NCBI GenBank assembly: GCA_950295325.1
Contig: OX485807.1
Location: 2,916,501-2,980,500, forward strand
Reading direction: 5' to 3'
Source: Polytrichum commune
Taxonomy: Eukaryota; Streptophyta; Polytrichopsida; Polytrichales; Polytrichaceae
Length of the DNA stretch: 64,000 nt
The translations under genes were made by a program, and so were the position numbers. Each line of letters starts with the position of its first letter. Position 1 is the stretch's first letter. Below are positions 9,163 through 55,125 of the stretch, piece by piece. Below the pieces are notes generated by a model. The model ran no database searches, was not told the origin of the DNA, and worked only from the letters and a program-made list of their open reading frames with translations.

Positions 9163-9198
9163 ACTTGAATGGTCGAAAATTACCAGCAACTGAATCTT

Positions 9199-27629: not shown

Positions 27630-27827
27630 TTGCATGCTCTATGCAAAACTTGTGGTGAGACTTTGAAGGGACGGAACGGGGCATGCAACAATGCACTCAA
27701 GGTGGGATGTGATTGTGCTGCATCATTTTCATCACGCGAACTAGAGGAAGACCTAAAAGTCATCAAAGCCATTCATCAAGAGTTGGTAATTGGAGGGGGG
27801 GGGTATGTAGCATGGGTTGGAAGATAG
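27630..27827 (+). pseudogene. Fragment of an unrecognised cysteine-containing gene (right arm)
   Basis: A short open frame reads LHALCKTCGETLKGRNGACN and continues through CDCAASFSS, an acidic helix and IHQELV, ending in low-complexity glycine coding where a G run begins. Similarity to the left arm (13866-14020) extends to both sides, where stops are frequent, so it is a remnant. The family is not recognised. Confidence 0.35.
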
Positions 27828-29026: not shown

Positions 29027-29254
29027 AATGAACAGGGAGAACAAACCGCTACTTACAAACGAATCGGTTGAGTTCAAGAAATAACTAATCGAAGTTCAAG
29101 ACCACAGGAAAATTACCGATCATTTCCGAGGAACTTGGAGAGATTATACTTCGAACTCATCAAGAAACACCGAAAGATGTCAACATGCAACCGGGTGGAT
29201 CTGGAAACACTAGGATCTCTCAACCAGATTATGCTTAAACATCTCCCTGGACAC
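29027..29254 (-). mobile_element. Small 10-bp-TSD element, copy c' (right arm)
   Basis: Mirror of the left-arm copy at 12390-12618, with flanks ATTGCAATCA and ATTGCGCTCA forming a decayed 10-bp duplication. Non-coding. Confidence 0.65.
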
Positions 29255-30255
29255 GGATTGCGCTCAATTTGGTCGCTATAATGATATAAATAGAGTGCAA
29301 AATAGAAATGTGGTGGCCGTTGCTAGCTGCACGCTTGTTTCCACCCGTGACTTATCTCATAACTTGCAGAATGTACATTTTGCATGCAGAATAGACAACT
29401 GTCGATGCAACCCCACCTTTCCACTCATCTCATCTCATCCTTGCAAATTGTACGCATTTGCCAGCCAGTATGTACATGTTTGGAAGTGACGAATTCAATG
29501 TAAAACGCTGCATGGCAGTAATTGCTTGCGGCCCAATCTAATCGCCAATCCAACTGTATATATGCACTCCACTGATCGTCCTTCCCTGATCTAACTACAT
29601 GCCTGACAAACAAGGAAACATGGTCTCAAGTTGTCCCTTGTCCCTAGTGTTGTTACCGCCTGGTCGTAACTTGGAAGGAGTCTTCAAAGGTGTTGCTGAT
29701 GGAATCCTGGGTCTTGCCGTTTGTCTTCATGCTTTGGAATCAACATAGAAGTCCATTTTTTCCATAGTTGAGGTGTGGTAGCCTCTAGAATCCCCTCGTT
29801 GGAGATTTTTCAAACCTGAGTACTAGCTTGTATGTGCATTGGTCACTAGGGAATGATTTTTTATTTTATTTTTTTGTGGGGGGGGGGGCATTCATTGTAG
29901 TATGTATGGTATCATGTAAGTGAACATAATAGTATTGATTATTGGGCATTGAAGTGTTACTTGAGTTTGATCCCTCTCTCTTCTTCCAACTTCTAAGGTT
30001 TCTCACAAGAGGAGTTCACCTCATCTGGATAATATACAAGTTTATAGACTCTAGAGGAATATATATTTATTTGTCTAGTTATGAAGCAATAGTTGTCATC
30101 CCATGTGTCATACTTTGATGACTTTGTCGATAAGAAACAATTTACAAGCATATACATGACAAATATCTTCTTTATTCTACAACCGCGTATAATTTGTAGA
30201 CATAATTGAGGCAATTTGCTTCATGGGGTTAAATCCCATGTACAATGCATGAGAC

Positions 30256-30486
30256 CAATGAGTGTTAGAGCTGATCGCTAGTTACAGATGAGCAGGTTGA
30301 GTTTGAGAAATTGCAGATTGAAGTTCAAGTTTTTGAAAAAGTCATTGATGAATTCCAGAGGATTTGAGAGAATATACCTCTAACTAATGAAAAGGAAAAC
30401 CGAAAGATGTCGACATGAAACTGGTTGGACTATAATTGGAAACACTAGGATCTTGACCAATTAAGTCCAAAAACCTCCCTGGACAC
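30256..30486 (-). mobile_element. Small 10-bp-TSD element, copy b' (right arm)
   Basis: Mirror of 11157-11385, 231 bp, flanked by TGCATGAGAC on both sides (30246-30255 and 30487-30496). The perfect 10-bp duplication survives in both arms. Confidence 0.8.
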
Positions 30487-31033
30487 TGCATGAGACATAT
30501 TCAATCTATGATTTGTATGTATAGATAATACTCTTCATCTAGTCACAATTTAAAAAATTAATTAATCTAATTTGATTTTTTTGAGTATATAAGGGTTTGT
30601 AATAAGGGGTCCTGCACGCATGCGATACCACTCACATGTCCTCCCCTTCCACCGACATTGGCTGGTCATTTAGGGTCTTGATCCCAATCAGACTCATTCA
30701 AGACTCCAATGCTTTTTTGAAGTTTCTAAGATGCGTGACTTTGTTGTGGGCAGTTCCAACATTTATGAATGTTTGAGGGTTCAAGAACCATTACAAAACT
30801 CACATGGGAGGATTAACAATCTACTTTTAAATTGGAAAAAAAAAATTGGAAGGCCCCCATAACGAGTGTTGAACGTTGAGTAATGAGTAATGTTATGTGA
30901 AAACACTTGGACATCTTGGGGTTGATAAATCGACATTGCGTAAAAATGCAGTTCGCCTCATTCATTTGTTTTGCTCACAATGTCTCTGCTTGGCAAGTGG
31001 CAGTGGCTCTGACCTACACACAATTGCAAAGCA

Positions 31034-31253
31034 GTGTCCGGGGAGATTTTTGGGCATCCAGTATCCGAGTGCTTCCAGGTCCAACCGGTTCCATGCTCAC
31101 ATCTTTCGCATTTTCTTCATCAATATATTATTCCATAGATTTCTCTAAGAGGATGGGTAATTTCATGAAGTCTTGAAGAAGTGCAATCGGTTAACTCTCA
31201 AACTCAACCAGTTCATCTGTAAACTACTGGCAGCCAATTCGCCCCGTTCATGG
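31034..31253 (+). mobile_element. Small 10-bp-TSD element, copy a' (right arm)
   Basis: A 220-bp copy starting GTGTCCGGGGAG, flanked by TTGCAAAGCA (31024-31033) and TTGCAAAGTC (31254-31263). It is more complete than its left-arm twin at 10411-10609. Confidence 0.75.
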
Positions 31254-31539
31254 TTGCAAAGTCCTGGGGAGGAAGGCAGAACCTGGTACGGGAAGGAAGC
31301 TGTTAGAGTTATAATCTAGCTAGCGACTGTGCATGTGCAAAGAGCAGATTAGATGTCATCTTTGCTTTTCCACGCGTGTCTGTAACTGCTCTCTGCAGTC
31401 CCCCAGGCGCCCAGTACAACTGGGACTCCAGGCGGCAAGCACCTCCCAACATGTGTGCACCTGACCCAATCTAATGTGCATGAGCTCCGACCCGCACTGC
31501 AGCCCCAGAGACGGCAAAAGGGAATTGGGAAGCGTTGAA

Positions 31540-31580
31540 AGTTTTAGATATAAATCAACCTGGCACAGTTTCTTCTCCAG
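31540..31580 (+). promoter_or_regulatory. Probable TATA-type core promoter of the right F-box gene
   Basis: AGATATAAAT at 31546-31555 is the counterpart of the left-arm box at 10110-10119. It lies about 230 bases upstream of the predicted leader donor. The roughly 250 bases downstream differ from the left arm at only a few positions. Confidence 0.4.
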
Positions 31581-31786
31581 TCTTTACGGAGTGGACGGAG
31601 GTGTTCTGTGAGGTTGTCGCGCTTTGGACCGGAGTACTGGACCTCCTCGTGTTAGCGAGCTTCGTTCTTGCAGGGTTAGTGGGATACCAGGTAGCGGGAG
31701 ATTTGGTGCTGCTGCAGGCAAGAGTCTGCACGGCTACCCAGAGATCGAGCGGAGCCCTTCCCGACGGACCCACAAATTAGTACTGG

Positions 31787-32469
31787 TGAGTGTCTGCGCT
31801 GCTGATAGACGCTTATACATTTGGGCTGCGCAAATGCTTGGCGCCGATTATGTTACAAATGTGGTAGTCGGTGTAACTGTGCTTGGTGTTGTCGACATAT
31901 GTGCGGCCGGAGAAGCTGCAAAGTCCCCTTCTCTTGCAATTGAAAATGTACGTGTTGAAATAATATTATGAACCAGCTGGTTGTTGCTCATAATTATAAG
32001 TCTTGTTTTACAGTATAAACACCGCCCTTCAGCTGTAGGTCGCGAGTTGACGGTTTAGGTGCAAAATGTACACCTTACTAGCTTTCACGCCATTTGCAAG
32101 AGCGCCTCACATTGCTTGGTACTGCTTGAAATCTGGTAGAAGGATTGTCAGCAACAGTTATAGTAATGAGAGCTACTTCATGTGGACAAGTATGTGAGTG
32201 TGGTTGTTTATCCTCTGCCTTTGTGTACATAAAGTCCCAAAAATCAGTTTGATGCCAAACGTTTGCAGCATGCTTGGCGTTGGAGGATGTAGTCTCATAA
32301 AACGTTTGAACTCTTTTCTTGGTCAGTTCAGCCTTGAACATGATGTCCTTCTTGTGATCTGTCGGGCTTCATTATTTTTCTTTCTCCATAGATTTACGAT
32401 TCCACATGATAACTTTTTCTCTGTGGACTGATTAGGCGCCGACGCTCCGATCGAACAACAACCTTGCAG
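31787..32469 (+). other. Predicted intron in the 5' leader of the right F-box gene
   Basis: Donor ACTG/GTGAGTG at 31787 and acceptor ACCTTGCAG ending at 32469, both conserved in the left arm. The intron would be 683 bases. It contains, on the opposite strand, the 87-codon frame at 32078-32341. Confidence 0.45.
32078..32341 (-). CDS. Unrecognised 87-codon ORF opposite the F-box leader intron
   Basis: The frame starts with ATG (MFKAELTKKRVQTFYETTSS) and ends KWRES. It has no domain I recognise, no signal peptide and no membrane segment. The matching left-arm stretch (9323-9590, plus strand) keeps the same start and most residues but lacks one T near the middle, so the left frame is broken. It may be a gene fragment or a chance frame in a conserved intron. 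Confidence 0.2.
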   Translation of the reverse strand: MFKAELTKKRVQTFYETTSSNAKHAANVWHQTDFWDFMYTKAEDKQPHSHTCPHEVALITITVADNPSTRFQAVPSNVRRSCKWRES

Positions 32470-32505
32470 AAGATTCAGTTGCTGTTAATTTTCGACCATT
32501 CAAGT

Positions 32506-34038
32506 ATGTTCGATTTCATTGGCTCATCGTCGTCGACAACTCAGCTCTCATTCATTCCTTCCATGGAGCCCAACAGATACACTGCAGACGTTTATAACTT
32601 TTACCGGATCAGAATACTACAGCATGGAGATCTTGCAGAAGAAGAAGAAGCAAAAGAGAACGCCGAGGCGGGCCCAGAAAATGCTGCTCTGGTGCTACCC
32701 GCAGCTTATGATGCATCTGCATCCTCATCCTCATCCTGCACTCGGTTCGTGGATCCCAAAGTATGGGAACACCGCCGAGAGGAATTCACGGACAGGGTCC
32801 TCAGCTTCCTGCCCATCCACCGGTTCTGGAAGACGGTGATGGCTATAGACAGCAAAAAATGGAAGGCCATCTTGAGCGACCCAGACAGGGGTTCACCTCA
32901 GACGCTTGGCCACATGAGGCATGTGAACTCCTCCTACGGTTATATACTCTGCAAGTTCCTCTGTGCGAGGAGGTCAGCACCAACTGCAGGGCCACTGGTC
33001 ACCGGCTTTGAGCATGAGACCAACTCTTGGCTCTCTCTGCCGAGCTTTCCAGAGGAGGGCCCGGAGTACTCGAAAGTTCACGTAGTGACAGCTTCTGGTG
33101 GCCTTCTTTGTGTTGCCACCCCGCTGGAACACATGGACGGCACGCTGTATACGTGCTACGGGATCTGGAATCCCATAATGCATTCTCTGCAATGGCTGCC
33201 GGCAAGTCCGGACCCCGCGGAAGTGGACCCCCGGTATCTTACACTCGTGGATAGTTTCATGCAAGTACACCTGGTGGTCAATCAGCTGCAGCGGACCAAC
33301 GCTTTGGTTCATGTACATACGCACCCTACTCGTGTGCTCTGGTGGAGCTATGCCGTGTATAAATCGTCTACTCGACGATGGAGTGAAAGCAAGTTGCTTC
33401 CCTCCCTGGACAACTCCGACCAGACGATACTGGGCAATCTCAGTGTCTCTTGCTCTGACTTCGTCTGTTTCCTGGGGCACATCCCTGATGGCAGCTTTAG
33501 ATTTCGTATCGTCATATATAGCACCGTGATGGATAGATGGTACACATCCACCGTCTCCGAAAGCCACATCGCGATGATGTTATATGGCCAGGAATCCCCT
33601 CGCTACCGGCTACCTATTGTCATATCGCTGCACGCTCTGGTAGCTGTGGAAGGGAAGGTGTACCTCATACTGTCCCAGAGCATTAAGGGGTTTGGACAAG
33701 ATATAGAGTTCCACATTACCTCCATGGACCCATCGACCATTGACCCTGATGCGCCCGACGTCACAGCTCCGGGGACTCCCAGCACACCAGTAATGCAGCA
33801 TGTGACAGTTGTCCCAGCGTCTCTGATCGATGTGAACGCCAGGGGGAGGTATTACTGGTATACTTGTTTGATCCGTGGGAGGCCTTACTTATGTAACATC
33901 GATGGCCAGCGGTTGCTGAAATATGACATCCGTGCCAAGTCTTGGAGCTCTAGTGACCAAACATGGCCTGTGGATGAGGCTGTGCTGCATCTCTACGGAA
34001 GATTTCAGCCTTTTGAACCAAGCTTCACGCCGGCATAG
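32506..34038 (+). CDS. F-box protein with propeller-like C-terminal half (right-arm copy)
   Basis: The product is 510 residues from the ATG at 32506 and is the twin of 7615-9162. The expected role is substrate receptor of an SCF ubiquitin ligase. The F-box is at about residues 83-125 (VWEHRREEFTDRVLSFLP). The C-terminal part carries the same FEHETNSWLSLP, GGLLCV and YGIWNPIMHSLQWLP strands. Compared with the left copy, the last 165 or so residues differ at a single position (DVNARG for DVKARG). The first two thirds carry a few dozen changes, including a shorter Glu run (EEEEAKE) and Arg for Leu at the start of the F-box (EHRREE). It is intact with no stops. The frame extends 14 codons upstream without another ATG, fitting an intron that ends at 32469. 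Confidence 0.85.
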   Translation: MFDFIGSSSSTTQLSFIPSMEPNRYTADVYNFYRIRILQHGDLAEEEEAKENAEAGPENAALVLPAAYDASASSSSSCTRFVDPKVWEHRREEFTDRVLSFLPIHRFWKTVMAIDSKKWKAILSDPDRGSPQTLGHMRHVNSSYGYILCKFLCARRSAPTAGPLVTGFEHETNSWLSLPSFPEEGPEYSKVHVVTASGGLLCVATPLEHMDGTLYTCYGIWNPIMHSLQWLPASPDPAEVDPRYLTLVDSFMQVHLVVNQLQRTNALVHVHTHPTRVLWWSYAVYKSSTRRWSESKLLPSLDNSDQTILGNLSVSCSDFVCFLGHIPDGSFRFRIVIYSTVMDRWYTSTVSESHIAMMLYGQESPRYRLPIVISLHALVAVEGKVYLILSQSIKGFGQDIEFHITSMDPSTIDPDAPDVTAPGTPSTPVMQHVTVVPASLIDVNARGRYYWYTCLIRGRPYLCNIDGQRLLKYDIRAKSWSSSDQTWPVDEAVLHLYGRFQPFEPSFTPA

Positions 34039-35140
34039 GTAGCTCTGTGAAGACTAGACGATTACAGCCGTAGATACCAGAAACATTTCATTCAAGTAAC
34101 TACAGCTGGAATTTAGCAGCAACTACAAACATGAAATAGATGGACCTTCAGAACGCCATAATCATCATGTCTCATTCATGATGACTGCGTGGTCGATGTA
34201 TGTTACAATCTGCTGTTTGTTTTTTGTACAATCTGCATGACTCAACTTGTTCGGCTTACTTTAAGGGATTCAGAGAGAAAGGGAGACTTCTTAAGTAGTC
34301 TTCTGCCTGCCGCAGGTGAGACCAGCAAGAACGATCAGTCCTCGGTTCTTGGATATTGAATCCTTCACAACATTCCGTAGGTTACCAGTAGCTTTATTGA
34401 GTCATTGTGCCTACACCTCTGATCATGCAAGTACCTTAAGCATTCTGTGACCTAAATTGTTTGTGAATTGATCTCACTGTGGCTGGCGTATATTTTACAT
34501 GGTTCCATCGACTTGAATCTACACAGATGTGCTAAAGTTTAACCAGCAGGGCAGGGACCTGGCGGTGAAGTCTACCACTCTTAACTTGTTTGAGAGGAGC
34601 CCCACTTTTCCTCATTTTGACATTGTAGTTGAAAGAAATTTCGAAGACCAATACACCAATTGTGTCTTGAAACATTCATGAGTTATCTGAAAGGAGGGGT
34701 CTCAAGACAGGAAATGATTTGCACCGATTCTGGAACATGAGGAGAGTCTGTTGGCACAAAGGCACGTAATGGACCGATTCCAGACAAATATTGCTTTCAT
34801 TTGATGTATAGGAGATGTGAAACATCAATTAATTACACATTGAATTGAACACCTACAGAGATGAGATAGTGGATTGAGCCTTCAGATATTACCACATTCA
34901 TGTCAGATTATTGACGACTGAATGCCTGGGACTGATACTTGAGAATTGTATGCAATTTTCAAAAGTTGGATATTCCTTCCCTGCAGAAAGAGGAGAGACC
35001 TCCTGTGGTTGCCACAGGTCATGAGAGTACCGGCAAGAATGTCAATCCTCTTTACATGGATATTCAATCCTTGTGAATACACTGCTGATCCTGTCTGTAA
35101 CTCGTACGTTCACTCCTTGGCCTGGAAGTTTGTGAATACT

Positions 35141-38651: not shown

Positions 38652-39117
38652 GTCACTGAGGCGCTGTGAATGAGCCTCTTGATTTCGCGAGCATAGTGCA
38701 TCCGGACCGTTGATCCATCAAGGCCCATCCAAGGGCCTCAATGATCCTAGGTGGCGAGGGGGTGGGGGTGGTGCTTGCCACCAAGGTAGGTGGGGGCCGG
38801 GGTGATGCTTGCCACCAAGGCGGGGTGGGGCCGTGGGCCTCGTGTCTTTTATTTCGGGGAGGCCGGCTTTAGGGTGGTGTCGGGCCTAGTGGCTAGGCGG
38901 GCTCGGTGGGCTAGGCAGCTAGGTAGGCTAGGTAGGCCTACTTACTAAATAACTAGTTGGTTGGTTACCCTTACTCTACTTACTAAATAACTAGTTGGTA
39001 ACCCTTACTCTACTTACTAAATAACAAGTTGGTTACCCTTACTCTACTTACTAAATAACTAGTTGGTTACCCTTACTCTACTTACTAAATAACTAGTTGG
39101 TTAGCCTTACTTGCTAA

Positions 39118-41026: not shown

Positions 41027-41141
41027 ATCAAGTATCCAAGTAATCATCCATAGGCAAACATGTGAAGTACGGGTGCATTGAGGCGTCAGAGCTGAGAGAG
41101 CCGGCCAAGACCATGACCCCGAAACACTCTCAGTAGCGTAC

Positions 41142-42413
41142 ATGGTTGATCATGAGGATACATCTAGTACGAGAAGTACATCACCAACCCCTAGAGAACA
41201 GGAGGCAGAGAAGAAGCATGTGGAGCGCATGCATTCCAGAGAAGACCGCATAAGGCGGACTGAACAACTCAAGAGAGAAAGAGAAGAGAGGTACGCTAGG
41301 CGTACAAGACAACGAACTACAGGAAGTGAAGAGAGCCGATACGCTTCTAAACCACCGGCAGTAGGTTCCCACACCCCTAAGCCCAGCCACCATAGAAGTC
41401 AAAGTGAAGGAGGAGGTAATGGTGAGACAAGCAAAGGACATGAAGACTTGGATGAAGAGAACTTGAATCAGGGAGAAAGCGAGGAAGATGAGGATGATCT
41501 GATAATAGGAACCCCTCTTGGGACATATGTTTTGAGAACAAGAGGTACAGGTAAAAACACGGGTACGCATACCCCAGTAGATAAAGCACAGGACAACACC
41601 CATCAAGGAAACACGGCCGAGGAAAATCTTTTCAACCCAAGGAGTTGGGAGAAACTGAAGAGAAATTTTGAAGAACAATTTAGCTTTGAAGACTCCGGCT
41701 TCTCCGGAGAGAGCACACAAGATAACACGGACCAAAGAGCAAAAAGACCCATCAGTCAAGAAGAATTTGACGAACTACGAAGAAAGTTTGAAGAGAAACT
41801 TAAGCAATTCCAAAACCTTGGAATTAACACCGGAGTCAGCCCACCACCAGCCAAGAGCAATAATCCACCCAGTGTTGGAAACAACCCACCCAATTCAGCC
41901 AACATGGCTGCACAACAACGGAGAACAAAGGTTCCCTTACCGACCTACAAAGGTAAGACAAATCCCGATACCTACATGCAAGAATTTAACAATGTGTGTC
42001 TTGCCAACCAGGAAGACACAGATGCAATCAAGTTGCAATTATTTCCAGTCACCTTGAAGAAGCGAGCATTAGAATGGTACTCCCAATTTGGCCCAAATCA
42101 TTTTCCAGATTGGCCAACTTTAGGAACTGCCTTTCTTATGAGATTCAGATCAAAGAAATCGGAGGGGGAGGTCATTGAAAGCTTAGGCTCCCTCAAACAG
42201 AAGAAAGACGAGACAGTCGAAGAATTTTATGAAAGGGTTATGGTGGAATCATCAAAGATTCACCCTCAACCTAGCAATCAATTCAAGAAAGCATGGTTCC
42301 TTAATGGATTGAAAAAGGAATACGCTAAGCACATTGATTTAATGCCGACCGATGACTTGGATGAAGCAAAAGCATCGGCACGGAAGTTGGAATTAGGACA
42401 GATGAGGAAATGA
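41142..42413 (+). CDS. Gag-like capsid region of the Gypsy element (fossil part)
   Basis: The first 260 or so residues are charged and low-complexity (many Arg, Glu and Ser). From about residue 265 the sequence fits the retrotransposon gag (capsid) domain: LPTYKGKTNPDTYMQEF, then LKKRALEWYSQF, a TAFLMRF stretch, ETVEEFYERV and FLNGLKKEY. In the family this protein forms the particle. Confidence 0.75.
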   Translation: MVDHEDTSSTRSTSPTPREQEAEKKHVERMHSREDRIRRTEQLKREREERYARRTRQRTTGSEESRYASKPPAVGSHTPKPSHHRSQSEGGGNGETSKGHEDLDEENLNQGESEEDEDDLIIGTPLGTYVLRTRGTGKNTGTHTPVDKAQDNTHQGNTAEENLFNPRSWEKLKRNFEEQFSFEDSGFSGESTQDNTDQRAKRPISQEEFDELRRKFEEKLKQFQNLGINTGVSPPPAKSNNPPSVGNNPPNSANMAAQQRRTKVPLPTYKGKTNPDTYMQEFNNVCLANQEDTDAIKLQLFPVTLKKRALEWYSQFGPNHFPDWPTLGTAFLMRFRSKKSEGEVIESLGSLKQKKDETVEEFYERVMVESSKIHPQPSNQFKKAWFLNGLKKEYAKHIDLMPTDDLDEAKASARKLELGQMRK

Positions 42414-42589
42414 AGATTCCCTGATGAGAGTGACAGTGAGGAGTCAAGTGACGACTCAGAGGAAGAACGGCGAAAGAAGAAAAAGAAGACAAAGAGCAAG
42501 AAGACCAACTCAACTAAAGATGACATCAAGACTCTCAGAGAAGAGATAGAAGGATTAGCTCTAGGGAGCAGAAAATTTCAAACAGGCAT

Positions 42590-43319
42590 CATTTGTCGGA
42601 GATGCCGAAATGAAGGACACTATGTTCAAGAATGTCAGATGAAGCAATGCACAAATTGTAATAGCCTTACTCATAACACAAGTGAGTGTGTTTATGAAAG
42701 GCACGAGTCTCGGAGGCCCCGAGATAGAAGATATGGGGCAAATCAAATACAACCCCAAACCAATCGAAGGCCAGGAGTGATCACTCCTAGGCGAGAAACG
42801 AATGACAGAAGGGTTCGGTTTGAACCAAGGATAGAATTCAGAAGAGATGAGAGATCCCCCTTTAGGGAAGGCGATTACCGGCGGGAGGCGGGAGGCCCCT
42901 ACCGGGGAAATGAATATCGCAGAGAAGAACGGCCCTACTATCGGCCCAACAACAAGTACAGAGATGATTTTAGGAGGGAAGGTTATTACCCCTACAAAAG
43001 CCAAGATTACCGGAGGGAAGATGAATACCCCTACCGAGGAGGCCCCAGAGGACCTATTAACCATGACAGGTATGAGTATATCAGAAGCCTGATGGATAAT
43101 AACAACACCAAGGCAGCGCCGAGAACTGGGTTCACTGGCGGACCACAACGAGATGGCAACCCTGACGAGTGTTTCTATTGTCATCAGAAGGGCCACCGGA
43201 AGCCGGATTGTCCGCACTATATCAAACATCAACATGAGTTGAATGGATTTAGAAACACACAGCCGGCCGTGGGAGCCAACGCAGTGTCCCCTGCGGTTTG
43301 TGTGATGACGAGAGCCTAG
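42590..43319 (+). CDS. Nucleocapsid-type zinc knuckles of the Gypsy element (fossil part)
   Basis: Three CCHC knuckles are visible: CRRCRNEGHYVQEC near 42598, CTNCNSLTHNTSEC near 42649 and CFYCHQKGHRKPDC near 43168. An Arg/Tyr-rich repetitive stretch (EYRREE, DYRREDEYPYRG) lies between the second and third. RNA binding is the family role. Confidence 0.7.
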
Positions 43320-43778
43320 CGGGCTGCAGCCGAGGAAGGCAAGGAAGATAGCGAAAGTGACGACAGTGATGATGACGATGATTCGAGCAGTGGCAGCTCT
43401 GAGGAGCAGGAAGATCATCAACAAAGAGATGAGAACTCTGATGAAGAGAGAGATGTTGTGCGCGAGCCGGACGCACACCCCGATGAAGACAAAGAGGAGG
43501 TATTCGAGCAAGATGAACACGTTGATGATAAGGAGAAAGAGGAAAGGCCGATAGGAGCCAACAACGATGAATGGGAAGCTGATAGGAGAGTCCACCGGGA
43601 GGTGAGTAAAACTATCACGGAAATACAGGAGGAAGAGGGCGAAGCTCTACCCACGCCAGAAGAGTTCGCACCTTGATACCCAGAAGAAGAAGAGGCAGGG
43701 AAGCCTAACGAACGGAGCCCCGAGAAAGGAGGCGTCCCAAAGACTACCCAGGCAAGGGTAGATGAGATCTTAGAGAAT

Positions 43779-44576
43779 GTGATGAATCACACAAGAGCCA
43801 ACATTTCAATAGGGCAACTACTAGAGATAGCCCCCTATTGTAGGAAACGGGTAATGGCTGCCCTTACCAGCCAAGAAGGAACGTCTGAGAAACCGACCTC
43901 TACATACCAAGTGACAGCAAAGGCATTCGATGAGGAAATGCCCATGATATCAGTGATCGTAAAGAATAAACGAATACCGAACGTGTTGATCGATGGTGGA
44001 TCAGGAGTGAACATCATCACATACACATTGAGGAAGAAATTAGGACTCAAGAAGATAGAGCCCGCACCATTTACCATTAAGATGGCTGACCAGAGGAAGG
44101 TCATGCCCAAAGGAATCATCCGGGATGTACGCCTTGATGTGGGCGGAATCATAATCCGGACGACACTCACCGTCATTGACATGGTGAGCACCGAAGACAG
44201 TTACTCCCTTTTGCTAGGGAGGCCATGGTTAAAAGAGGCCCAAATACAACATGATTGGCCCCTCAACAAATTGACCTTAACGCAAGGGGGAAACAAGGTA
44301 GAGATAAGCACCCAAAGAACGCCGGCCCTATCACCGGCCAAAAGACCCCTAAATTGGGAAGACTACGACTGGGAAATGGGATTGTCCGATGAAGAAGAAG
44401 CGATAGTCTATGAAGCCTTCCCAGAACTTCTACCCATGGGGAACTTTGATTTGAAAAGCTTGAGGAAGCTAAGAGAACCAAGCTGCAAAACAGTGAAGAT
44501 TGATACCCACCACGAACCAGGAAACTTGGAGCACGGAAAAGAGAAACCGAGAAACCTCGGTCAAGAAAAGCAATGA
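43779..44576 (+). CDS. Protease region of the Gypsy element (fossil part)
   Basis: Aspartic-protease-like core VLIDGGSGVNIITYTLRKKL near 43984-44045, followed by LLLGRPWL near 44209, the usual second landmark of retroelement proteases. Acidic sequence follows before reverse transcriptase. Confidence 0.65.
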   Translation: MMNHTRANISIGQLLEIAPYCRKRVMAALTSQEGTSEKPTSTYQVTAKAFDEEMPMISVIVKNKRIPNVLIDGGSGVNIITYTLRKKLGLKKIEPAPFTIKMADQRKVMPKGIIRDVRLDVGGIIIRTTLTVIDMVSTEDSYSLLLGRPWLKEAQIQHDWPLNKLTLTQGGNKVEISTQRTPALSPAKRPLNWEDYDWEMGLSDEEEAIVYEAFPELLPMGNFDLKSLRKLREPSCKTVKIDTHHEPGNLEHGKEKPRNLGQEKQ

Positions 44577-45487
44577 AGAAAGAACAAGAACCTATGGAGG
44601 AGAAACCGGTATATCCCTCCCAGTTTTACAAGGCAAAAGAAGGAGAGATAGAGATTGATCGCACCCCTGCCTCAGAAGCCGTTAAAGGGAAGAAGATAGC
44701 AGGATGGACAGTTGAAGATGAAGACTTGGTGAAGAATTTAAACTTAGGAACTCCGGAGGAGCCTAAGTTAGTCAAAATCGCGAAAGACTTGGGAGAATAC
44801 GAAGCAAAGGTGAAAGAGCTACTCCTAAAATTCAAGGATGTGTTTGCTTTCACGTATAAAGACATGAAGGGCATACCCCCTCATGTGTGCGAGCACAAGA
44901 TTGAGCTGCAGCCGGAAGCCAAGCCGGTGCGACAAATGCGTTATAGGATGAATCCTAATTACGCAGCCAAGGTGAAGGAAGAAATCGACAAGTACTTGGA
45001 AGCGGGATTCATATATCATGTGGATAAAACAGAATGGCTATCACCGATCGTGATTGTGCCAAAAAAAAATGAAAAACTACGAGTGTGCGTCGACTACCGA
45101 AAACTCAACGCAGTCACCAAGGTAGATCCTTTTCCTTTACCTTTTACAGAATCCATCTTGGAAGCGGTTGCAGGACATGAGATGTACACGTTGATGGACG
45201 AGTACAGTGGATACAACCAAATCATGATCGCCTTAGAAAACCAGCTGAAGACTTCTTTCATCACCGAGTACGGAGTATTCGCGTACAGGGTAATGCCTTT
45301 TGGATTGATGTGCGCACCCGCCACCTTCCAAAGAGGCATGATGAAGATATTTGCCGATTACCTCGACAAATTCATAAAGGTGTTTTTAGATGATTTTACA
45401 GTTTACGGAACCAAGGAAGACCACATTGAGCATTTGGAAAAATGTCTCATTAAGTGCCGCGAAAATGGAGTAAGCCTGAACCCATAA
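44573..45487 (+). CDS. Reverse transcriptase region of the Gypsy element (fossil part)
   Basis: Fingers and palm motifs are in order: KPVRQMRYRMNPNY, EWLSPIVIVPKK, LRVCVDYRKLNAVTKVDPFP, YTLMDEYSGYNQI, FAYRVMPFGLMCAPATFQR and the active-site FLDDFTVYG. This is the most diagnostic part for Ty3/Gypsy, and its style resembles plant Tat/Athila elements. Confidence 0.85.
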   Translation: MKKEQEPMEEKPVYPSQFYKAKEGEIEIDRTPASEAVKGKKIAGWTVEDEDLVKNLNLGTPEEPKLVKIAKDLGEYEAKVKELLLKFKDVFAFTYKDMKGIPPHVCEHKIELQPEAKPVRQMRYRMNPNYAAKVKEEIDKYLEAGFIYHVDKTEWLSPIVIVPKKNEKLRVCVDYRKLNAVTKVDPFPLPFTESILEAVAGHEMYTLMDEYSGYNQIMIALENQLKTSFITEYGVFAYRVMPFGLMCAPATFQRGMMKIFADYLDKFIKVFLDDFTVYGTKEDHIEHLEKCLIKCRENGVSLNP

Positions 45488-45529
45488 AAGTGTTTCTTCT
45501 GCATCAATTTAGGGAGACTCTTAGGGCAC

Positions 45530-46087
45530 GTGGTATGCAAGGAAGAATTGTTGGTGGATCCAAAGAAGATAGAAGTTATCAAGGGATTACCTCCACCAAC
45601 CACCGTACGAGGAATTCGGAGTTTCCTGGGACAAACTACATACCATCGAAAATTCATATGGATGTACGCTGAGATCACTCGGCCTTTGTACTTATTACTC
45701 AAGAAAGGAGAAAAGTACATTTGGACAAAATCTTGTCAAGAGGCCTTCGAAGAAGTGAAGAAAATATTAACAACTACATCCATTTTGGTAACTCCCAATT
45801 GGACCATGGAATTCCACGTACATTACGATGCCTCCAACATCGCGATTGGAGCCGTTTTGGCTCAGAACATACACGGGGATAGAGATTCCCTAATTCATTA
45901 CGCTAGTCGACTCCTAAACAATGCGGAGAAGAACTATAGTACGACGGAGCGTGAAGCCCTAGCAATGATCTACTCAGTGGGCAAATTCAGACACTATTTG
46001 CTAGCAAACCATTTCGTGTTCTACGTGGACCATCAAGCCCTGCTATACTTGGTCAATCGACCAGTGGTGTCCGAGCGAATCGCGTGA
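45530..46087 (+). CDS. RNase H region of the Gypsy element (fossil part)
   Basis: Includes the connection region (GIRSFLGQTTYHRKFI) and the RNase H landmarks HYDASNIAIGAVLAQ, YSTTEREALAMIYSVGKFRH and YVDHQALLYLV. The standard tail of the domain follows at the start of the next region (KPGRSHVMANHLSR). Confidence 0.8.
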   Translation: MVCKEELLVDPKKIEVIKGLPPPTTVRGIRSFLGQTTYHRKFIWMYAEITRPLYLLLKKGEKYIWTKSCQEAFEEVKKILTTTSILVTPNWTMEFHVHYDASNIAIGAVLAQNIHGDRDSLIHYASRLLNNAEKNYSTTEREALAMIYSVGKFRHYLLANHFVFYVDHQALLYLVNRPVVSERIA

Positions 46088-46255
46088 TGGATGATGTTAC
46101 TTCAAGAGTATGATTTTGAAGTAGTTTATAAGCCTGGTAGGAGCCATGTAATGGCTAACCACCTATCAAGGATAGAAAACGGAGAAGACCCCTCAGGGGT
46201 ACAAGACCAGTTTCCGGACGCAAGTTTATTCATGGTTCACGTGCAACCATTCGAA

Positions 46256-49200
46256 GACTGGCGAGCACCTTTCATTGAGTACCTTACCCACGGAAGATTA
46301 TTGTCAGCTCTAGCTACCCCACGAGAACAAAACAAGATCAGGCAACTAAGTGAGCCATTCGTCCTAGACGACGAAAAGCTTAAGCGAGTCAGTATCTCCG
46401 GCAAGATACATGAGTGTATAGCCGGGGACATCATTGAAGAAGTCATAAGCGAAGCCCATGAGCAAGATGGGATACACTACAATCTAACTTCAACATGGCA
46501 TTACATACTACGCACCCCATATTGGTGGCCTACTCGACGAAGAAACGTACTGGAATACTGTCAAGAATGTCCGGTATGTAAGGTTGCTGACCAAGGAAAC
46601 GAAACTGGGAACATTACCCCACAAGATTCAGAGGACAACGACGATCCACTCCCTGTACAACCTTTGGAAGCGCAAGAAGACATGACAGGAAAAGCAGAAT
46701 CGGATTGGACAACATCATATGTCCAACACATGACATGTCTAACACACGGAACCCCCTGGGTGAGTTCCCTACCCAAAGAAGAGAAAAAATTGGTAGTGTA
46801 CCGAAGCCGTTTCTTCATACTCATTGAAGGAGAGTTACACCGCATGTTTCATAACGGCATTACAAAGAAATGTATGCCTGGAAGGTATGTGAGGAGTTAC
46901 ATCAAGACCCTCCATATACGAGAAAATCGGCATCTCCCCATAAGCGCCACCAAGGAATTGGTTCTAAAAGGCCCTTATTGGTGGCCAACTATAGCGGAAG
47001 ACGTCTCACTACTCATCACACTATGCACCGAGTGTGAAGAACGAGGAGAAGAGTTGCCAACAGAAGCAAGCTCTTCGGAACCTGGTAACGGGACGGACAT
47101 TATACCATACAAGGAAACCTTTAACGATTGGAGAACGCCTCTAGTCGAATATCTGGCACATGGAAGATTCAAAATGGACATGGAGACCCAAAGAGGGCAG
47201 AGGGAAACCATACGAGAGAGCGAAATTTTCACTTTGGAAAAGGGAAAACTTCGAAAACTGGAGAAAAATGGAATGGCTCAAATTTGCATCGCTGGTTACC
47301 AAATAAAGCATTGGATAGGGAAAATGCACGTACACCAGCAGAGATACTTAGACGACCAACAAACTTGGTTTCGATGCTCGCAAGGGAATCGGTGGTGGCC
47401 CACGATGGGGTTGTGCGACATACAAATCTACATTATGTACGACTGCCCGTCTTGTCGAAGAAGATTTCGAGGCCCGCTCCATAACATAATTTGTGGGTCC
47501 GTCATCATACAAGCTCATGACAACAAGGATTGGAGGAAATTACTTATAGAATTCCTCACATACAGGTACTTGAAAGGGCCCCGCATCTCGAAAAATCAAT
47601 ACAAGAAAATAATTCGGCAAAGCCGAAAATATTTCATTGAAGAAGGGAAACTAAAACGAATCTTGGCGGATGGAGATATTAAGATATGTATTGCGGGACG
47701 TGAGATCAACGAGTACCTGCAGGAACTACATGTTACTGAATCCGGGCAACATCTTAGCGAAGAGACAATGTGGCACCTAGTAATGTTTGGACCATATTGG
47801 TGGCCCACATGCGGAGCTGACATTAACGGCTTATGCCATCAGAAATGTACGGTATGCAGCAACCAAGCAGAATTTTCAAAGGACCAGCAAACACCATCAC
47901 CTGTGGACCGGAAAGACCTACCAAGAGGGATTGCTGCAGATTGGAGACGCCCTTACATGGAGTACCTAACATGCAGGGAAATCTTCGACCAAACTTTACC
48001 ACCATAGGTAAAAAGGGCAGTAACACAAAGCCATAAGTATTTTATGTTCACCAACAACATTTTGCAACGGATACGCAAAGGAAGGAAAAGTAATCAAGTT
48101 TGTATCCCCGAGACTCAAGTTTCCATATACCTAGCCAAGGTACATGGGGAAAGCGGACCCCACTTGGCCGCCATAGAAACATGGAAGGCCGTGGCCACGG
48201 GGACGTACTGGTGGCCAACATGGGGAAACGACGTGTGCAACCATTTAAGAGATTGCAAAATTTGCAGAATAACAAAGACCCGGGGTAAGTACCCCGAGGA
48301 AAGTCAGAGTTCAACCCCACCAAAACAAACGCTAGAGTCCGATTGGAGATAACCGATCACACAACGGCTAAGGAACTTTGAGGAGTTGAACCACGTTAGC
48401 ACACATGAAGATTTGGGATTACTCAGCCTCAAACACCGAGACGTATTTCATAGCCGAAGATGGTTTGAAATATCGATTACCAAATGGAGAAGTTAAGATG
48501 TGCGTGGCCAAAGAAGACGCCAAGGATTGGATGAAGAGGATACATGAATATCAAATACCGCATCTAACGAGAAAAGAAGTACTCACACAAGTACACAAAG
48601 GCCCGTATTGGTGGCCCACCATTTCTTCAGATGTAAACCACTTAATTGACGAATGTAAACCATGTTAGATCACTGCAACGTCAGGCCTTAAAATCGAGAA
48701 CTATGGGGCCATCCTCTTCCAGAATCAGAAGACACGTGATTGGAGAGAACCAATCCTTCAACACCTCAAAAATCCCATGGAACTAAGCAACTTTGCTTTC
48801 CATGAGGAATTGGGTACATTACGGGCAGAAGTGCCCTGTTATTTCCTAGAAGAGGGAAAGTTAAAGCGAAACTTTACAAGTGGACAAGTAAAATTATATA
48901 TCTCTCAAGAAGAAAGAATTGAATGGTTATCCACCATTCACCATCAAAGGTACCCTCACCTCTCAATGGATGAGATGGTTTTGCAGGTCAACCTAGGACT
49001 TTATTGGTGGCCCACAATACCACCGGACATTGACCACATGTGCAAGGAATGTCGGATTTGTTGGCCCCATAAATTTTCGAAGCTTATGGTTGATTGCAAG
49101 ACTGTCACCATTAACGAAAAGGAAGAACCGGATTGGAGTTCACCTTTCATCGATTACCTAACACACGGGAGGTTGACCACGGAAGCCTCCACCACCCAGC

Positions 49201-49505
49201 GACAACAAATCGCCATACGAAGTCGTCCATACATGCTAAACCACAACGGGACTCTGTTAAAAGAAGGGCCCGATGGTATGCGGAGGACATGCGTAGCTGG
49301 ACCGATAACTACAGCCATTATCGCGGAGGACATGCGTAGCTGGACCGATAACTACAGCCATTATCGCGGAGGCTCATGAAGGAATAGCTGGAGGGCACTT
49401 TTCGGCCAATATCACCTTACACAAGGTCTTAACGGCCTTGTACTGGTGGCCCACCATGAAGAGAGATGTTCATCTTTACTGCACTCAATGTGACATCTAT
49501 CAAAG
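46256..49505 (+). repeat. Eight tandem linker + H2C2 zinc modules in Gypsy pol (fossil part)
   Basis: Each module has a DWR..(I/V)EYL opening, an R......F...G.L.R....G....C middle, an H-X5-8-H pair, a (Y/R)WWPT signature and a C..C pair. Starts are at about 46256, 46703, 47126, 47528, 47939, 48341, 48738 and 49131, giving spacings of 447, 423, 402, 411, 402, 397 and 393 bases. This module corresponds to the single segment that normally joins RNase H to integrase in Ty3/Gypsy (Integrase_H2C2). The units are well diverged in sequence yet keep length and signatures. The last unit has the most canonical form (AHEGIAGGHF) and leads into the integrase core. Confidence 0.85.
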
Positions 49506-50637
49506 GGTTGGCCCAAAGATCTCAAACAACCTCCAACCCTTACATCCCACGATGCCCACGGAGGTATTTCAGAAATGGGGTTTGGATTTCATTGGACCGG
49601 TCAACCCGCCAGCCAAAGGTACCAAGAATCGGTACATTATCATGGCTACGGACTACACCACCAAATGGGTGGAAGCCGAAGCTTTAAAAGATAACACGGC
49701 TAAATCTACGGCCAAGTTCTTTTTCGAAGAGATAATTACAAAATTTGGATGCCCATTGGAAATTGTGAGCGACCAAGGAAGTCACTTTATCAATGACACT
49801 ATTAAGGTGCTCACTCAAGAATTCATGATTTTACACCGAAAGTCAACCACATACTATCCACAAGCCAACGGCCAAGCGGAGAGTACCAACAAGGTAATTA
49901 AGATTGCCTTAACCAAAATGGTGAACGCCAATCGAACTGATTGGGACACCAAATTACATGCAGCACTTTGGGCCTATAGGACAACCTATAAGGTTACCAC
50001 CAAGCACACCCCGTTTTCATTAGTGTTCGGGACGGAAGCCTTGTTACCTATGGCTTACCTTCACCCCGACGTCTATCAGAAACGGAATCAAGAGTTTCAT
50101 CCCATTCTCGAAAAGAGAATGGAACAACTCAGAACTATGGATTTAACCAGACATGAAGCCGAAGACAATATGAAACATATGCAACTATTAAGAAAGGAAA
50201 GACATGACAAACCCCGGGCGAAGAGACAATGTCAACACTGTAACCTTGGGATAACCAAGCCACCACGAAAGGGGGCCAAGAAACATGACACTTTAAAAGA
50301 GGGCCCTATTCAAGCTATGGAGGAAAGTGAAAACTCTCAAAGTAACGAAGATGGGGAGCAAAATCCTACATCCAAGACACGTTTTTATCCCGGCCAACGA
50401 ATCTTGTGGCACTTACGCCATAAAATACCCAGGCCGGGCAAGTTCAAAATACGATGGGCAGGACCTTATCTAATTCAACAAGTCTATGATAATGGATCAG
50501 TGGATGTTACCACCCTACAAGGGGACAGTTTGGGACGAGTCAACATGAACAAACTAAAACCCTACCAAGAGCCCGAAACAACCCAGGCTTATGCCTTACA
50601 AATTCTAGCATGCCACCTTTTAGAAACGGAAATATGA
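49506..50637 (+). CDS. Integrase core and GPY/F C-terminus of the Gypsy element (fossil part)
   Basis: Catalytic D,D-35-E residues are visible: D in WGLDFIGPV (about 49585), D in IVSDQGSHF (about 49771) and E in NGQAESTN (about 49879). Further landmarks are HAALWAYRTTYK and TPFSLVFGTEALLP. The C-terminal part has RWAGPYLIQQV (GPY/F module) near 50450 and then NKLKPY. No chromodomain follows. Confidence 0.85.
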
Positions 50638-52512
50638 GCAAAACAAAATCCTTTATACAAAGGGACCAGTACTACACCAATTCCCATCACCCCATCTTCT
50701 CAATCAAATAAGGAAACCATTTCACATACTGGTTCCACCTCTTACCAAAGTCAAGAAACCTTAGATGCTGAAGATTTGGAAATGCATAGGGTCATGCTAG
50801 AAGTATACCACATACATCCCTCAAAACAAGAGCATGTTCATCCAAGAGATACCGTAAACCCCCTAAGGTATGACCAAATGGATGAAGAAGAAACCCACCT
50901 ACATACCATACAATTACAACAAAAGAAAGATACCTTAAACCTCATAAGGCACAACCAAAAGGATGAAAAAGAAACCAACCTACATACCATATCCCAATGG
51001 GAACTACTATTAAGTTTAGGAGAAAGTTCGGGAAGCACAACACCTATGAGGAATACAACCCATTCCTACCCTACCTTACCCCGCTTGGAGTTAACTGGGG
51101 GGGGGAACCAACTCACAAATGAAAATTTTGCAAGAATGCGGCCTAGGAAAAGACTCACCTAGGACCGACCACTGGACCAGCAAACCAGTCGGAGCATTTT
51201 ACCCCCTTAATTGGGAGCAGGATGAGGTTATACCTTAAAGACGTACAAAAGTAATGGATAAAGTTACAGTGAATAAAGATGTGAGTTTTAAGAAAGAAGG
51301 AGACGAGCAAAGTCTTGGGAAATAAGAAGATATGTGAAATTGTGAGGAATGCAAAGATATATTAGGTCCTAAAGATGGAAGAGATTTCCAACAAATTATG
51401 ACATACGGATGAATTATATAAGTGAGGAATCAAGTATGGATGAAGACAAGCATTTTAGAAAGTTACACCACATGAGAGTCAAAAATTCCAGCTTAAGAGG
51501 GATAAAAGGTTTTGAGTATTCCAAATTTCCACACCACCTTAGATAAATGAGGGGGGATCGGAATTTTTACTTTTAGTTGAAAGAGGTTAACCTGGGAGAG
51601 TTAGGTCATATTAATAATTGGATGATAAAATGTTAGAAGTGGAACCGAATTTTGATTGCAGTCTAGGTAGGAATCTGGAAGCCCGGAATGAATAAGAAGT
51701 TTTATCTGGAAACTTTGGGATATCCTGTTGAGTTGGGTAGGAAGCTTTGAGAGCCAGCCAACGATCGGTTTTACTTAAGGAAGACTAAATTCATCGAAAT
51801 AGGTTTCCGAACACTTAACCAGAATTTCAGGAGTGGAAGTAAATAATTGCGGAATGGTGGAGTTATATTGCACTATAGGCAAGTGAATCCTTTGAAATGC
51901 GTTAAGCGTGCAAGTTACAAGGATACGGTAACTATATACCAGAAGTTACCAAACCCATATTCATTTGAAATATTCACATAACACGAGAAAGGGGATCCAC
52001 ATAATGCTCAAGTAAAATTCAAGTTACCATCAGCAATCGACATACAAACTGCAGAAATCCAAGCATAAGCAGAGGTAAACTCCAATTTTGATTTTATTGG
52101 AGGGGCCCACACATGGTGAGCCCCAAAGAAAAAGGGATTCAACCCACCGAAGTGGGGAATCCCATAAAAGAGGAGGACTTACGGTACCTCAAAAAGAGCC
52201 CACTCACACAAAGTTAGTAAGTGAGGTGAAAACGGAACTTGCACAGTCAAAGATCATGTTGAGGGGTAATACCTGGAAAATCGACAAAGTCCAGCAAGGA
52301 CCAGGCCCCACCTCCCAGTTGGCAAGGAAGTGAGCCAACTGGAGCATGAGGAACCCTAAATCAAGAACCTCAACCACCAAGGTTTCAGCTGAACACACCA
52401 GGGAGCTGTGAGGGGAACCAACTCTCAAACCCACGCTCAGCAGTTGCCCCAGGAGCACCCGTTTTGAGGAGGTTACAGAAACTACCAAATTGTTCGGAAG
52501 GAGCTAACAAGG
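50638..52512 (+). other. Region between integrase and the 3' ORF of the Gypsy element
   Basis: A short frame at 50776-51162 carries two related 22-23-residue units (DTVNPLRYDQMDEEETHLHT and DTLNLIRHNQKDEKETNLHT). The rest, 51170-52512, is purine-rich with no supported coding region. It may be the untranslated leader of the downstream ORF. Confidence 0.5.
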
Positions 52513-55125
52513 ATGGAGAGTCTATATGAGTTGATACCGCAGCTGGATGAGCAGGGGATATTTTGGAAGAATTTGCAAGCTAAGTGCTTGCAAGCTGTCG
52601 CCGCAGTGCGTTGGAGCGTGGGCGAGTCTCAGTGGTATCCTCAGTCGTGCAAGTATCTTATTTACCAAAACTTGTTGTGCAAAGCAGCGACCAGCATCAA
52701 AGAGGCGGATTTGGCAGAGATGAAGAGGAGACAAGGGGAAGAGGAGCCTGGGCGTTACATCTTTGTGGTAGATGCAGTTCTTAGACACCGGCAATTTACA
52801 ATGGAGGAGGTTAAGTTTCTCAAGCAGGTCAACTTGGAGGGCTTTGTGACTCGAATCACTTGGGGAGTGCTGCATGAGGTTCTGGTACGAGAGGCATTGA
52901 CAAATCTCCAAGAACAGACCTTCATGACAACAATCCAAGGCAAAGCATTTCCCTTAATGAAGTCAGACTGGAGAGCACAGATGCGGGAAACTTTTGAACT
53001 TACCACTCGACTGGTGCCTTCAACCAAGCAGTGGGAGCTTTCTGAATTATTTCCATCACTCAAGACGGTAGCTGAAGGGCAAGAGACGGTGAAAGTGACT
53101 GATTGCACATTTCCAGGTGCAAAGAAACCCCTCAGAATTCTGAGTTCTTTATTTTGCTTAAACACAGCTGGTCAGAACCATATATCCATCTCCTTTGCAG
53201 AATTGATCATGGCAGCCTTAAATGGCCAAGCAGTATACTGGCCTGAAGAATTCTATCAAGAATTTTGGGAGGAAGTTATCAAGCTTCACCGTAAACACTC
53301 ACTAGATATGGTGAAGGTGGTAAGGACCACCGTTGGGCCTCATCTCACCCTCTTAATCAAGGCTGCAGGGGTAATGGATTTACCACATGAAATAGAAGCG
53401 GGTTTTCGCCTGGCTAAGTCCTTTTCCACTACAGACTTAGACAACCAGCCTAAGAAGAGGAGATACACCACCAAAACAACCATACCAGCCCCTACCTTGC
53501 ATAAAACTGTAAGGGTGGTGAAACCCAGCCCAAATCCGCAGAAGGGACCTTCCACCTCAGTGCCGCAACGAGCCTCAGAGACTCCTCGCTCGGTGGTAAT
53601 TGAGACAGAAGAGCCATGGCAGACTCCAGAAGCCATACCCAATATCGTGGAGCAGGTGAAACAGGTGCACCGAAGGCTGGAAAATTTACTCACAACCCTC
53701 ACAAGCAAAGCGCCACCGGAATTACTGAAGACCCTGGATTCCCAATTCTACAGAATCCGGCGGGCGACCATTCTACAAGAAGACACACAACCGACAGATG
53801 CCCCCAACACATTGAAAACAGAGGTTCTTAAATCTCAGAGTGTTCAGTTGGAAAGGCTAGAGAAGAAGTTGGCCGAAACAGAAGAACTAAATCAGATTTA
53901 CATTGAGAGCTCTTTCGAAATGGAAGAGGAAGTGGCAAGGTTGCAGGCTGAAACTCACTCTCTCATGCAAACGAATCAAGAGAACCTGACCCAACTTCAG
54001 GATCTGAAAGAAACTCACTCAAAACAACTCGAAGCCAAGGACAAGGTAGTGGCATCCTTGCAAGACCAAATTCGGAGATTAAAGGACGAGGTAACAACGT
54101 ATAACAGGAAGGCTAGGGAGTCGCACAAAATTCGACACCAAGAGAAAGAGGAACTTACCAGATTGCGTACCGAACATGCAGAATGCAGAGCAACCAGGGT
54201 CGAGAGAGAGCAAATTTCCAACTCCAGGAACGATCCGGGGATCGGACAGACCTCCAAACGGCCAATAGATCGGATGGAACGCCAAGCCCTGGCCACGGGA
54301 GCGGCGGAGCAGATGCTCAGTGACCTGCAACAGGAGCTGCAGGTGTGCAAACAGGAAAAAGACGAGTTGCAGCACCAGCTTCAACAAGGCACACCCTCGA
54401 TGCCAATGAGCCTACCCCCATCCGTTATCCACCCGAAAACCGAAGTCTACAATCGATTGTTAGAACATACTGAACCTATCCAAACGGTTATGCAATACTA
54501 TCAGGCCTACAGGCCACTCGATCTCCTTACCAGCAATTTACCTTTACCCAAAAGGGGCGTCACCCTGAGCCTGCTACAATTTCAAGAGCTGTGGGAGCAG
54601 GCGAATTCCCGGGCAAAGGACACATTGGCTTTTATGTGGACAGTAAGTGACATTAAGCTTTCCCTTGGCACCATAGAAGTGGTAACAGCATCACCACCAT
54701 TCTACATTAGAAGATACATTCTCAGGAGCATAGCATGGTTAGCACAACACCAAACAACAAAAGACAAGGGACCCAATATCAGTCAGATTTTACCCATCCT
54801 CCGCCCTTACAACCACAATCAGAAAATGGAGATCACAAAACTCCAATACAAACATGAAACAACCTTCCACAAGGCCACAAATGCTCTTCGGAAAGAGGAT
54901 ACAACGATCTGCTACAAGGCAGTGAGGCGCCATCAGTGGCTCCTGGAGCACCACCCAGCGAAGCAAACCAATGTGACACTCCCTCAACTGAAGGAGTATG
55001 TCGCACAAACATTGGAGGACCAGAATGTGACCACAACGAAGGGCAGATTCGGCACTATTGACCATGGTACAGTCCTCCGCATGCGAACAGCCGAGCCTCC
55101 AAGCTTCACACCCTGCGTGATCTAG
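52513..55125 (+). CDS. Extra 870-residue coiled-coil ORF downstream of pol (fossil part)
   Basis: An uninterrupted frame starting MESLYELIPQLDEQGIFWKN, on the same strand as pol and ending about 40 bases before the 3' LTR. Residues 1-300 look globular (for example ISFAELIMAALNGQAVYWPE and VGPHLTLLIKAAGV). Residues 300-430 are Pro/Ser/Thr-rich, about 435-565 and 600-627 are strongly heptad-patterned coiled coil, and the C-terminal 240 residues are globular again. No signal peptide or membrane segment is apparent, so an envelope role is not supported despite the env-like position. Some plant Tat/Athila elements carry additional ORFs in this place; function unknown. Confidence 0.7.
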   Translation: MESLYELIPQLDEQGIFWKNLQAKCLQAVAAVRWSVGESQWYPQSCKYLIYQNLLCKAATSIKEADLAEMKRRQGEEEPGRYIFVVDAVLRHRQFTMEEVKFLKQVNLEGFVTRITWGVLHEVLVREALTNLQEQTFMTTIQGKAFPLMKSDWRAQMRETFELTTRLVPSTKQWELSELFPSLKTVAEGQETVKVTDCTFPGAKKPLRILSSLFCLNTAGQNHISISFAELIMAALNGQAVYWPEEFYQEFWEEVIKLHRKHSLDMVKVVRTTVGPHLTLLIKAAGVMDLPHEIEAGFRLAKSFSTTDLDNQPKKRRYTTKTTIPAPTLHKTVRVVKPSPNPQKGPSTSVPQRASETPRSVVIETEEPWQTPEAIPNIVEQVKQVHRRLENLLTTLTSKAPPELLKTLDSQFYRIRRATILQEDTQPTDAPNTLKTEVLKSQSVQLERLEKKLAETEELNQIYIESSFEMEEEVARLQAETHSLMQTNQENLTQLQDLKETHSKQLEAKDKVVASLQDQIRRLKDEVTTYNRKARESHKIRHQEKEELTRLRTEHAECRATRVEREQISNSRNDPGIGQTSKRPIDRMERQALATGAAEQMLSDLQQELQVCKQEKDELQHQLQQGTPSMPMSLPPSVIHPKTEVYNRLLEHTEPIQTVMQYYQAYRPLDLLTSNLPLPKRGVTLSLLQFQELWEQANSRAKDTLAFMWTVSDIKLSLGTIEVVTASPPFYIRRYILRSIAWLAQHQTTKDKGPNISQILPILRPYNHNQKMEITKLQYKHETTFHKATNALRKEDTTICYKAVRRHQWLLEHHPAKQTNVTLPQLKEYVAQTLEDQNVTTTKGRFGTIDHGTVLRMRTAEPPSFTPCVI

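Follow-up and report, generated by a model that had tools for sequence, protein, structure and literature searches.

A tandem array of extension-plus-zinc modules in the integrase of a Ty3/Gypsy family from the moss Polytrichum commune

Eight integrase units in the window element

The DNA analyzed here is a 64,000-nucleotide stretch of the Polytrichum commune genome (contig OX485807.1, positions 2,916,501 to 2,980,500; hereafter the window, whose own numbering is used throughout). It contains a Ty3/Gypsy element which, by Pfam scans, has the order gag and then protease, reverse transcriptase (RT), RNase H and integrase. This copy is decayed and belongs to a multi-copy Ty3/Gypsy family with a tandem array of extension-plus-zinc modules in its integrase. 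Eight units lie between RNase H and the integrase core (46256-49500), each of approximately 110 residues and each made up of an extension domain beginning with DW followed by an H-H-C-C (HHCC) zinc domain. For each unit we give the score against the Pfam family Integrase_H2C2 (PF17921) and, where available, the score in bits against its own position profile and the next best profile. The window's own U1-U7 are included among the rows of these profiles.

46256..46579, + strand: unit 1 (U1), extension domain plus HHCC; PF17921 37.5 bits, E 2.5e-9; U1 profile 240 against 76
46703..47035, + strand: unit 2 (U2); PF17921 25.6 bits, E 1.3e-5; U2 profile 229 against 65
47126..47455, + strand: unit 3 (U3), second zinc His replaced by Tyr; no PF17921 match; recognized by U3 profile (235 against 64) and alignment
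47528..47857, + strand: unit 4 (U4); PF17921 20.9 bits, E 3.8e-4, under the cut-off; U4 profile 225 against 71
47939..48265, + strand: unit 5 (U5), stop TAG at 48005; PF17921 31.7 bits, E 1.7e-7 on 48008-48349
48341..48665, + strand: unit 6 (U6), stops TAA at 48350 and TAG at 48666, frame change before 48390; PF17921 23.7 bits, E 5.3e-5, under the cut-off
48738..49061, + strand: unit 7 (U7); PF17921 21.4 bits, E 2.8e-4, under the cut-off; U7 profile 210 against 98
49152..49500, + strand: unit 8 (U8), adjoining the core, broken by a 43-bp duplication, last zinc Cys replaced by Tyr; PF17921 47.9 bits, E 1.5e-12 on 49309-50634

A first-pass annotation, made from the letters alone, had described eight tandem linker/H2C2 units at 46256..49505, and this is confirmed by a DW start (46256, 46703, 47126, 47528, 47939, 48341, 48738 and 49152) and a WWPT motif in all eight. 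WWPT recurs at spacings of 396-456 bases and did not occur once in 500 single-base shuffles of 46001-49600 read in three forward frames. The details of that description needed some correction. The DW starts are 397-447 bases apart, so that the upper end of the annotated range (393-447) stands and the lower end does not, and the DWR start given for every unit is DWT in U2 and DWS in U8. The zinc-binding pairs, likewise ascribed to every unit, are present at 30 of 32 ligand positions, the exceptions being the second His of U3 and the last Cys of U8, both Tyr. As annotated, the last unit alone adjoins the core.

Scoring the units as separate pieces against PF17921, which the annotation had proposed as a check, bore out most of them: seven of eight matched at E<1e-3 (E<=4e-4) and four (U1, U2, U5 and U8) exceeded the curated cut-off, while U3 was unmatched. 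The piece 49122-49376 of U8 gave no PF17921 match. Fourteen alignment columns, including the four zinc ligands, share their commonest residue across all eight positions when the U8 rows are taken from copies other than the window's. Each unit aligns over the full extension-plus-HHCC module. The fold was compared for the U7 model only, and the predicted structure matches residues 8-104 of foamy-virus integrase.

The remaining parts of the element are as follows.

41082..43316, + strand: gag capsid with CCHC knuckles, in two open frames separated by a stop; PF03732 at E 2.8e-9 and zf-CCHC at E 7e-4, the latter slightly under the cut-off
43677..44573, + strand: aspartic protease region; PF13650 E 1.8e-4, under the cut-off
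44504..45484, + strand: RT, closed by stop TAA at 45485; PF00078 E 2.5e-21
45488..46084, + strand: RNase H, closed by stop TGA at 46085; PF17919 E 5.4e-33, PF17917 E 2.2e-27
46088..48004, + strand: open frame of 639 codons that covers U1-U4 and the start of U5 and served as query in the searches for copies
49280..49372, + strand: exact 43-bp tandem duplication in U8, which shifts the frame
49309..50634, + strand: integrase, with the remainder of U8, the D,D-35-E core and the C-terminal part; rve PF00665 41.6 bits, E 1.5e-10

The window copy is no longer intact: in-frame stops occur at 45485, 46085, 48005, 48350 and 48666, the frame changes where U6 begins, and U8 carries the 43-bp duplication. 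A Pfam scan of 49309-50634 (E up to 10) found no chromodomain after the integrase core, and neither PF00075 nor PF13456, the families sought for an archaeal-type RNase H (aRH), was found in the RNase H piece or in those that separate it from the core. These scans do not place the window element among chromoviruses or Tat elements. No long direct-repeat pair that could serve as long terminal repeats (LTRs) was found flanking it, and the initiator-Met pattern that we assumed for the primer binding site, the only type searched, was absent near gag. Downstream of integrase, on the same strand, an 885-codon open frame (52468-55125) with no Pfam family above the cut-off is possibly an extra open reading frame of the element.

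Elsewhere, the window contains an 8.5-kb inverted repeat, 96% identical (6521-15034 and 26623-35140), with matching open frames of ~540 codons (7615-9228 on the minus strand, 32413-34038 on the plus strand); the frame at 7618-9228 had no Pfam match. Arrays of a 34-bp tandem repeat with one consensus occur in both orientations at 3136-3267, 3745-3846 and 38938-39111.

Copies of the array and its one- and two-unit relatives

The 639-codon frame, used as a protein query, returned 11 proteins, nine of which have at least three unit hits in the same order. Further protein searches added more array proteins and a sister family whose middle units diverge; searches of viral, genome-contig and plasmid collections gave no match. 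In the genome of the window (408 Mb), 69 of 1,252 candidates were scored, yielding 106 matches, and the locus counts are lower bounds because only the best candidates were scored. The window-type array occupies at least 42 loci including the window, some of them fragments, and 19 of these 42 give one match covering at least 635 residues. The array is not a one-off of this locus, the outcome that would have refuted the first-pass annotation: 41 further loci carry array-type matches. A more distant type, with identity of 51% or less over the units and 61-70% over the RNase H tail, was found at 14 or more loci. Several array loci sit in open frames of 2,000-3,700 codons.

Among 20 fetched window-type loci, U1-U8 occur in order in 19, the sole exception being L027, in which U7 is not recognizable. 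Fifteen of the 20 hold one frame; internal stops, some of which appear in the genome search, were left out of this count. Frame changes occur in L022, L030, L034 and L037, and L034 additionally has an insertion between U5 and U6. The number of units is not constant across the array types. The first block is repeated in at least eight loci, and each of the three fetched (L041, L043 and L045) has 11 units in the order U1-U2-U3-U1-U2-U3-U4-U5-U6-U7-U8 with no stop from the first unit to the last. All four fetched loci of the distant type (L042, L044, L046 and L047) have five units, namely a U1-like unit, three divergent units and U8, and two of the four have one stop each. For the middle units of this five-unit family, the scores of the U2-U7 profiles lie close together and single out no position.

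Copies on different chromosomes are nearly identical over their shared units (L031/L032, 0.9991; L035/L039, 0.9985), and therefore array-bearing copies have spread recently. Two array copies with identical scores (C5:13223362-13225038 and 13233642-13235318) lie ~10 kb apart in opposite orientation, as in an inverted duplication. In the proteins P0132, P0134, P0145 and P0146, units run by eye into downstream sequence without a core, as if deleted between a unit and the C-terminal part.

Relatives with one unit include proteins from Adiantum, Riccia, Calypogeia, Cryptomeria and Taxus. One-unit plant Ty3/Gypsy elements (P0020, Adiantum P0042, Riccia P0061) share the order RT, RNase H, extension domain, HHCC and core, with a single module between RNase H and core where the window family has an array; they align to residues 500-860 of P0007 at 42-54% identity over 83-92%. 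The U8 profile scores best in all five one-unit modules compared (P0020, P0021, P0042, P0045 and P0072). As a control, we searched the genome with P0018, a two-unit relative, and scored the best 41 of 4,767 candidates. All 41 loci match in two adjoining parts, no more than 25 bases apart, that skip the first unit; one-unit elements are therefore common beside the array family, and no two-unit element is among these 41 loci.

Two complete tandem modules precede the core in a Gypsy clade comprising P0017, P0018, P0019, P0022, P0026 and P0043. This clade differs from the array in having two units only and in its place in the core tree, where it lies next to Adiantum P0051 and P0056 (98/97), which show only part of one module, and where the array clade stands apart (100/99). 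The core tree was built without P0016, which is too short, and without P0023, P0042, P0045, P0070 and P0072, in which the core pattern was unmatched. Approximately unbiased tests did not reject a common origin of two-unit and array elements (p 0.125 on the core, 0.346 on units). On these sequence comparisons, separate origins for the two-unit and array elements would fit best, and a single origin appears less likely by the core tree. Two further proteins, P0088 and P0095 (assigned by name to Mucuna pruriens and Rosa chinensis), have two unit hits each, those of P0088 ~700 residues apart, and were not counted as two-unit elements.

Selection on the units and growth of the array

The first-pass annotation regarded the expansion as old and maintained by selection, a view upheld by the grouping of units by position, by the pattern of identity and by per-unit ratios of nonsynonymous to synonymous substitution (dN/dS) of 0.08-0.20. 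We placed 109 units in one tree (54 from the array families, 12 from two-unit elements and 43 marked as one-unit, drawn from 82 one-unit candidates), using a quick method on 110 columns that left many forks open. Starred groups by position appear for U1-U6 and a group at 89 for U7, and array units thus cluster by position and not by copy. P0009, marked as one-unit in this tree, is an array-family U1 and groups there, and a smaller unit tree did not recover U4 as a group. Mean identity is 64-80% within a position as against 20-38% between positions, in agreement with the annotated divergence of the units.

Pairwise dN/dS was 0.10 for U1, 0.19 for U2, 0.15 for U3, 0.15 for U4, 0.16 for U5, 0.20 for U6, 0.16 for U7, 0.08 for U8 and 0.03 for the core. 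The ratio is below 1 in all 305 pairs kept, 34 of which are core pairs; the pairs come from 13 chosen rows of fetched copies and share ancestry, so they are not independent. Units that were incomplete or contained stops were excluded, as were pairs with dS <0.08, >1.5 or saturated. Pooled values were 0.05-0.30 for the 11-unit copies (n=3) and 0.09-0.25 for the five-unit copies (n=4). Every unit is under purifying selection. Zinc ligands are kept at 669 of 686 sites in fetched window-type copies, and the linkers, mostly 20-40 residues, are conserved at 33-69% compared to 64-81% for the flanking units. U6 is the weakest position (64/77 ligands kept): ligands are lost in some copies, the last Cys being Tyr in P0007 and P0015, with dN/dS still at 0.20. 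In a neutral simulation of the 639 codons, all 200 runs acquired at least one stop at 85% identity and at least four at 71%. Because the public proteins had been picked for being open frames, the claim of selection rests on dN/dS and not on this simulation. The array is multi-copy, ordered, grouped by position and has dN/dS well under 1; it is therefore a selected architecture at the level of the element.

The 11-unit locus L041 records how units are added. Its first U1-U3 block is closest to L036/L038 (U2 97%, U1 83%, U3 85-86%). In the remainder, U1, U2, U4 and U5-U8 are closest to L028 (84-97%) and the second U3 is closest to L023 (85%). L041 is thus chimeric, with two subfamilies fused in frame at the linker of a unit; in this one copy examined, the U3 linker passes directly into the stretch that normally precedes U1. 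Unequal, in-frame recombination of one subfamily with another would produce such a joint, with template switching during reverse transcription as the likely route.

Possible roles of the array and known integrases

Of the explanations considered, we tentatively place first, though at somewhat short of even odds, that the array acts as a multivalent arm of integrase. The array would stay part of integrase, forming a flexible arm whose modules fold separately, and through them each intasome would hold many weak, specialized contacts. The basic modules (U2-U5 and U8) may contact nucleic acid, and the acidic ones (U1, U6 and U7) proteins or partner modules. The element's own DNA, or a target in chromatin, would then be bound with higher avidity without extra integrase subunits. 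A bolder form, possible and held with less assurance, is that the arm is modular and evolvable, with specialized zinc-module copies reshuffled at linkers between subfamilies to tune the partners of the intasome. If true, such an arm would parallel, in an integrase, tandem zinc-finger or multivalent reader proteins, and would do so in 5-, 8- and 11-module forms within one genome, recent copies among them.

Of the alternatives to a multivalent arm, assembly in cis survives best, and we consider it unlikely without being far-fetched. Here the extra modules would replace the N-terminal domains (NTDs) that other intasomes take from extra subunits, so that few long integrases form a large intasome that targets DNA and protein of the element itself, not chromatin. 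In the intasome of maedi-visna virus (MVV), NTDs swap across the synaptic interface, and additional NTDs contribute protein-protein and protein-DNA contacts (PMC9065133), a use that would suit complete modules whose sequence and charge are specific to position and of which U7 has the expected fold by model. Copies with 5, 8 and 11 units, however, do not point to one fixed geometry.

Somewhat less probable again is release of the array, or of single modules, by the protease, after which they would work as proteins of their own, for instance in packaging RNA or cDNA. The array does sit between two enzymes of one polyprotein, its linkers are short and variable, and the core-less derivatives noted above keep their units, but U8 retains its usual place beside the core. 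Improbable, and largely refuted by dN/dS, is a passenger array to which recombination adds units while selection merely keeps the frame open. Unit number does differ between families, an in-frame joint was seen and the upstream units evolve faster than the core. However, upkeep of the frame alone would give dN/dS near 1, not the 0.10-0.20 of U1-U7. Retention of zinc ligands (96% and 98%), the lower conservation of linkers than of units and the order of all eight units in 19 of 20 loci also count against it. Lastly, the local 43-bp duplication and frame changes of the window copy might have suggested a one-off rearrangement or assembly artefact, which we reject as having next to no probability given array copies in public proteins and contigs, at least 55 other loci in the same genome and the ordered fetched loci.

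Among the papers listed by our literature searches, none turned up an element with tandem integrase zinc modules. The reference plant survey treated repeated copies of a domain within an element as probable prediction errors and dropped such elements (PMC6317226), and because of this filter tandem-module elements may have been overlooked by design. The same source describes Tat and chromovirus lineages, which are also plant Ty3/Gypsy polyproteins with an added domain, an aRH or a chromodomain; here, neither appears in the Pfam scans and the addition is integrase's own module, multiplied. As for the module itself, the extension domain of Ty3 integrase steadies LTR contact and is reported to bind TFIIIC (PMC8632968), and that of prototype foamy virus (PFV) is called essential for complexes with viral DNA and without a role in in vitro activity (PMC3738965).

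One likeness is to the lentiviral MVV intasome, where many NTDs likewise surround one catalytic core; loosely held NTDs are seen in it, and multivalent chromatin contacts via LEDGF/p75 are proposed for it (PMC9065133). Those NTDs are supplied by 16 integrase subunits, whereas here one chain carries them. Ty3 integrase (7q5b) and PFV integrase (3l2q, 4e7k) are each described with one module; for Ty3 and retroviral integrases, each chain is described as having a single zinc module, and intasome size as set by subunit number. The natural family described here has up to eleven modules on one chain, under selection, so that what the extension and zinc domains contribute to assembly and targeting can be compared across one-, five-, eight- and eleven-module families in one genome.
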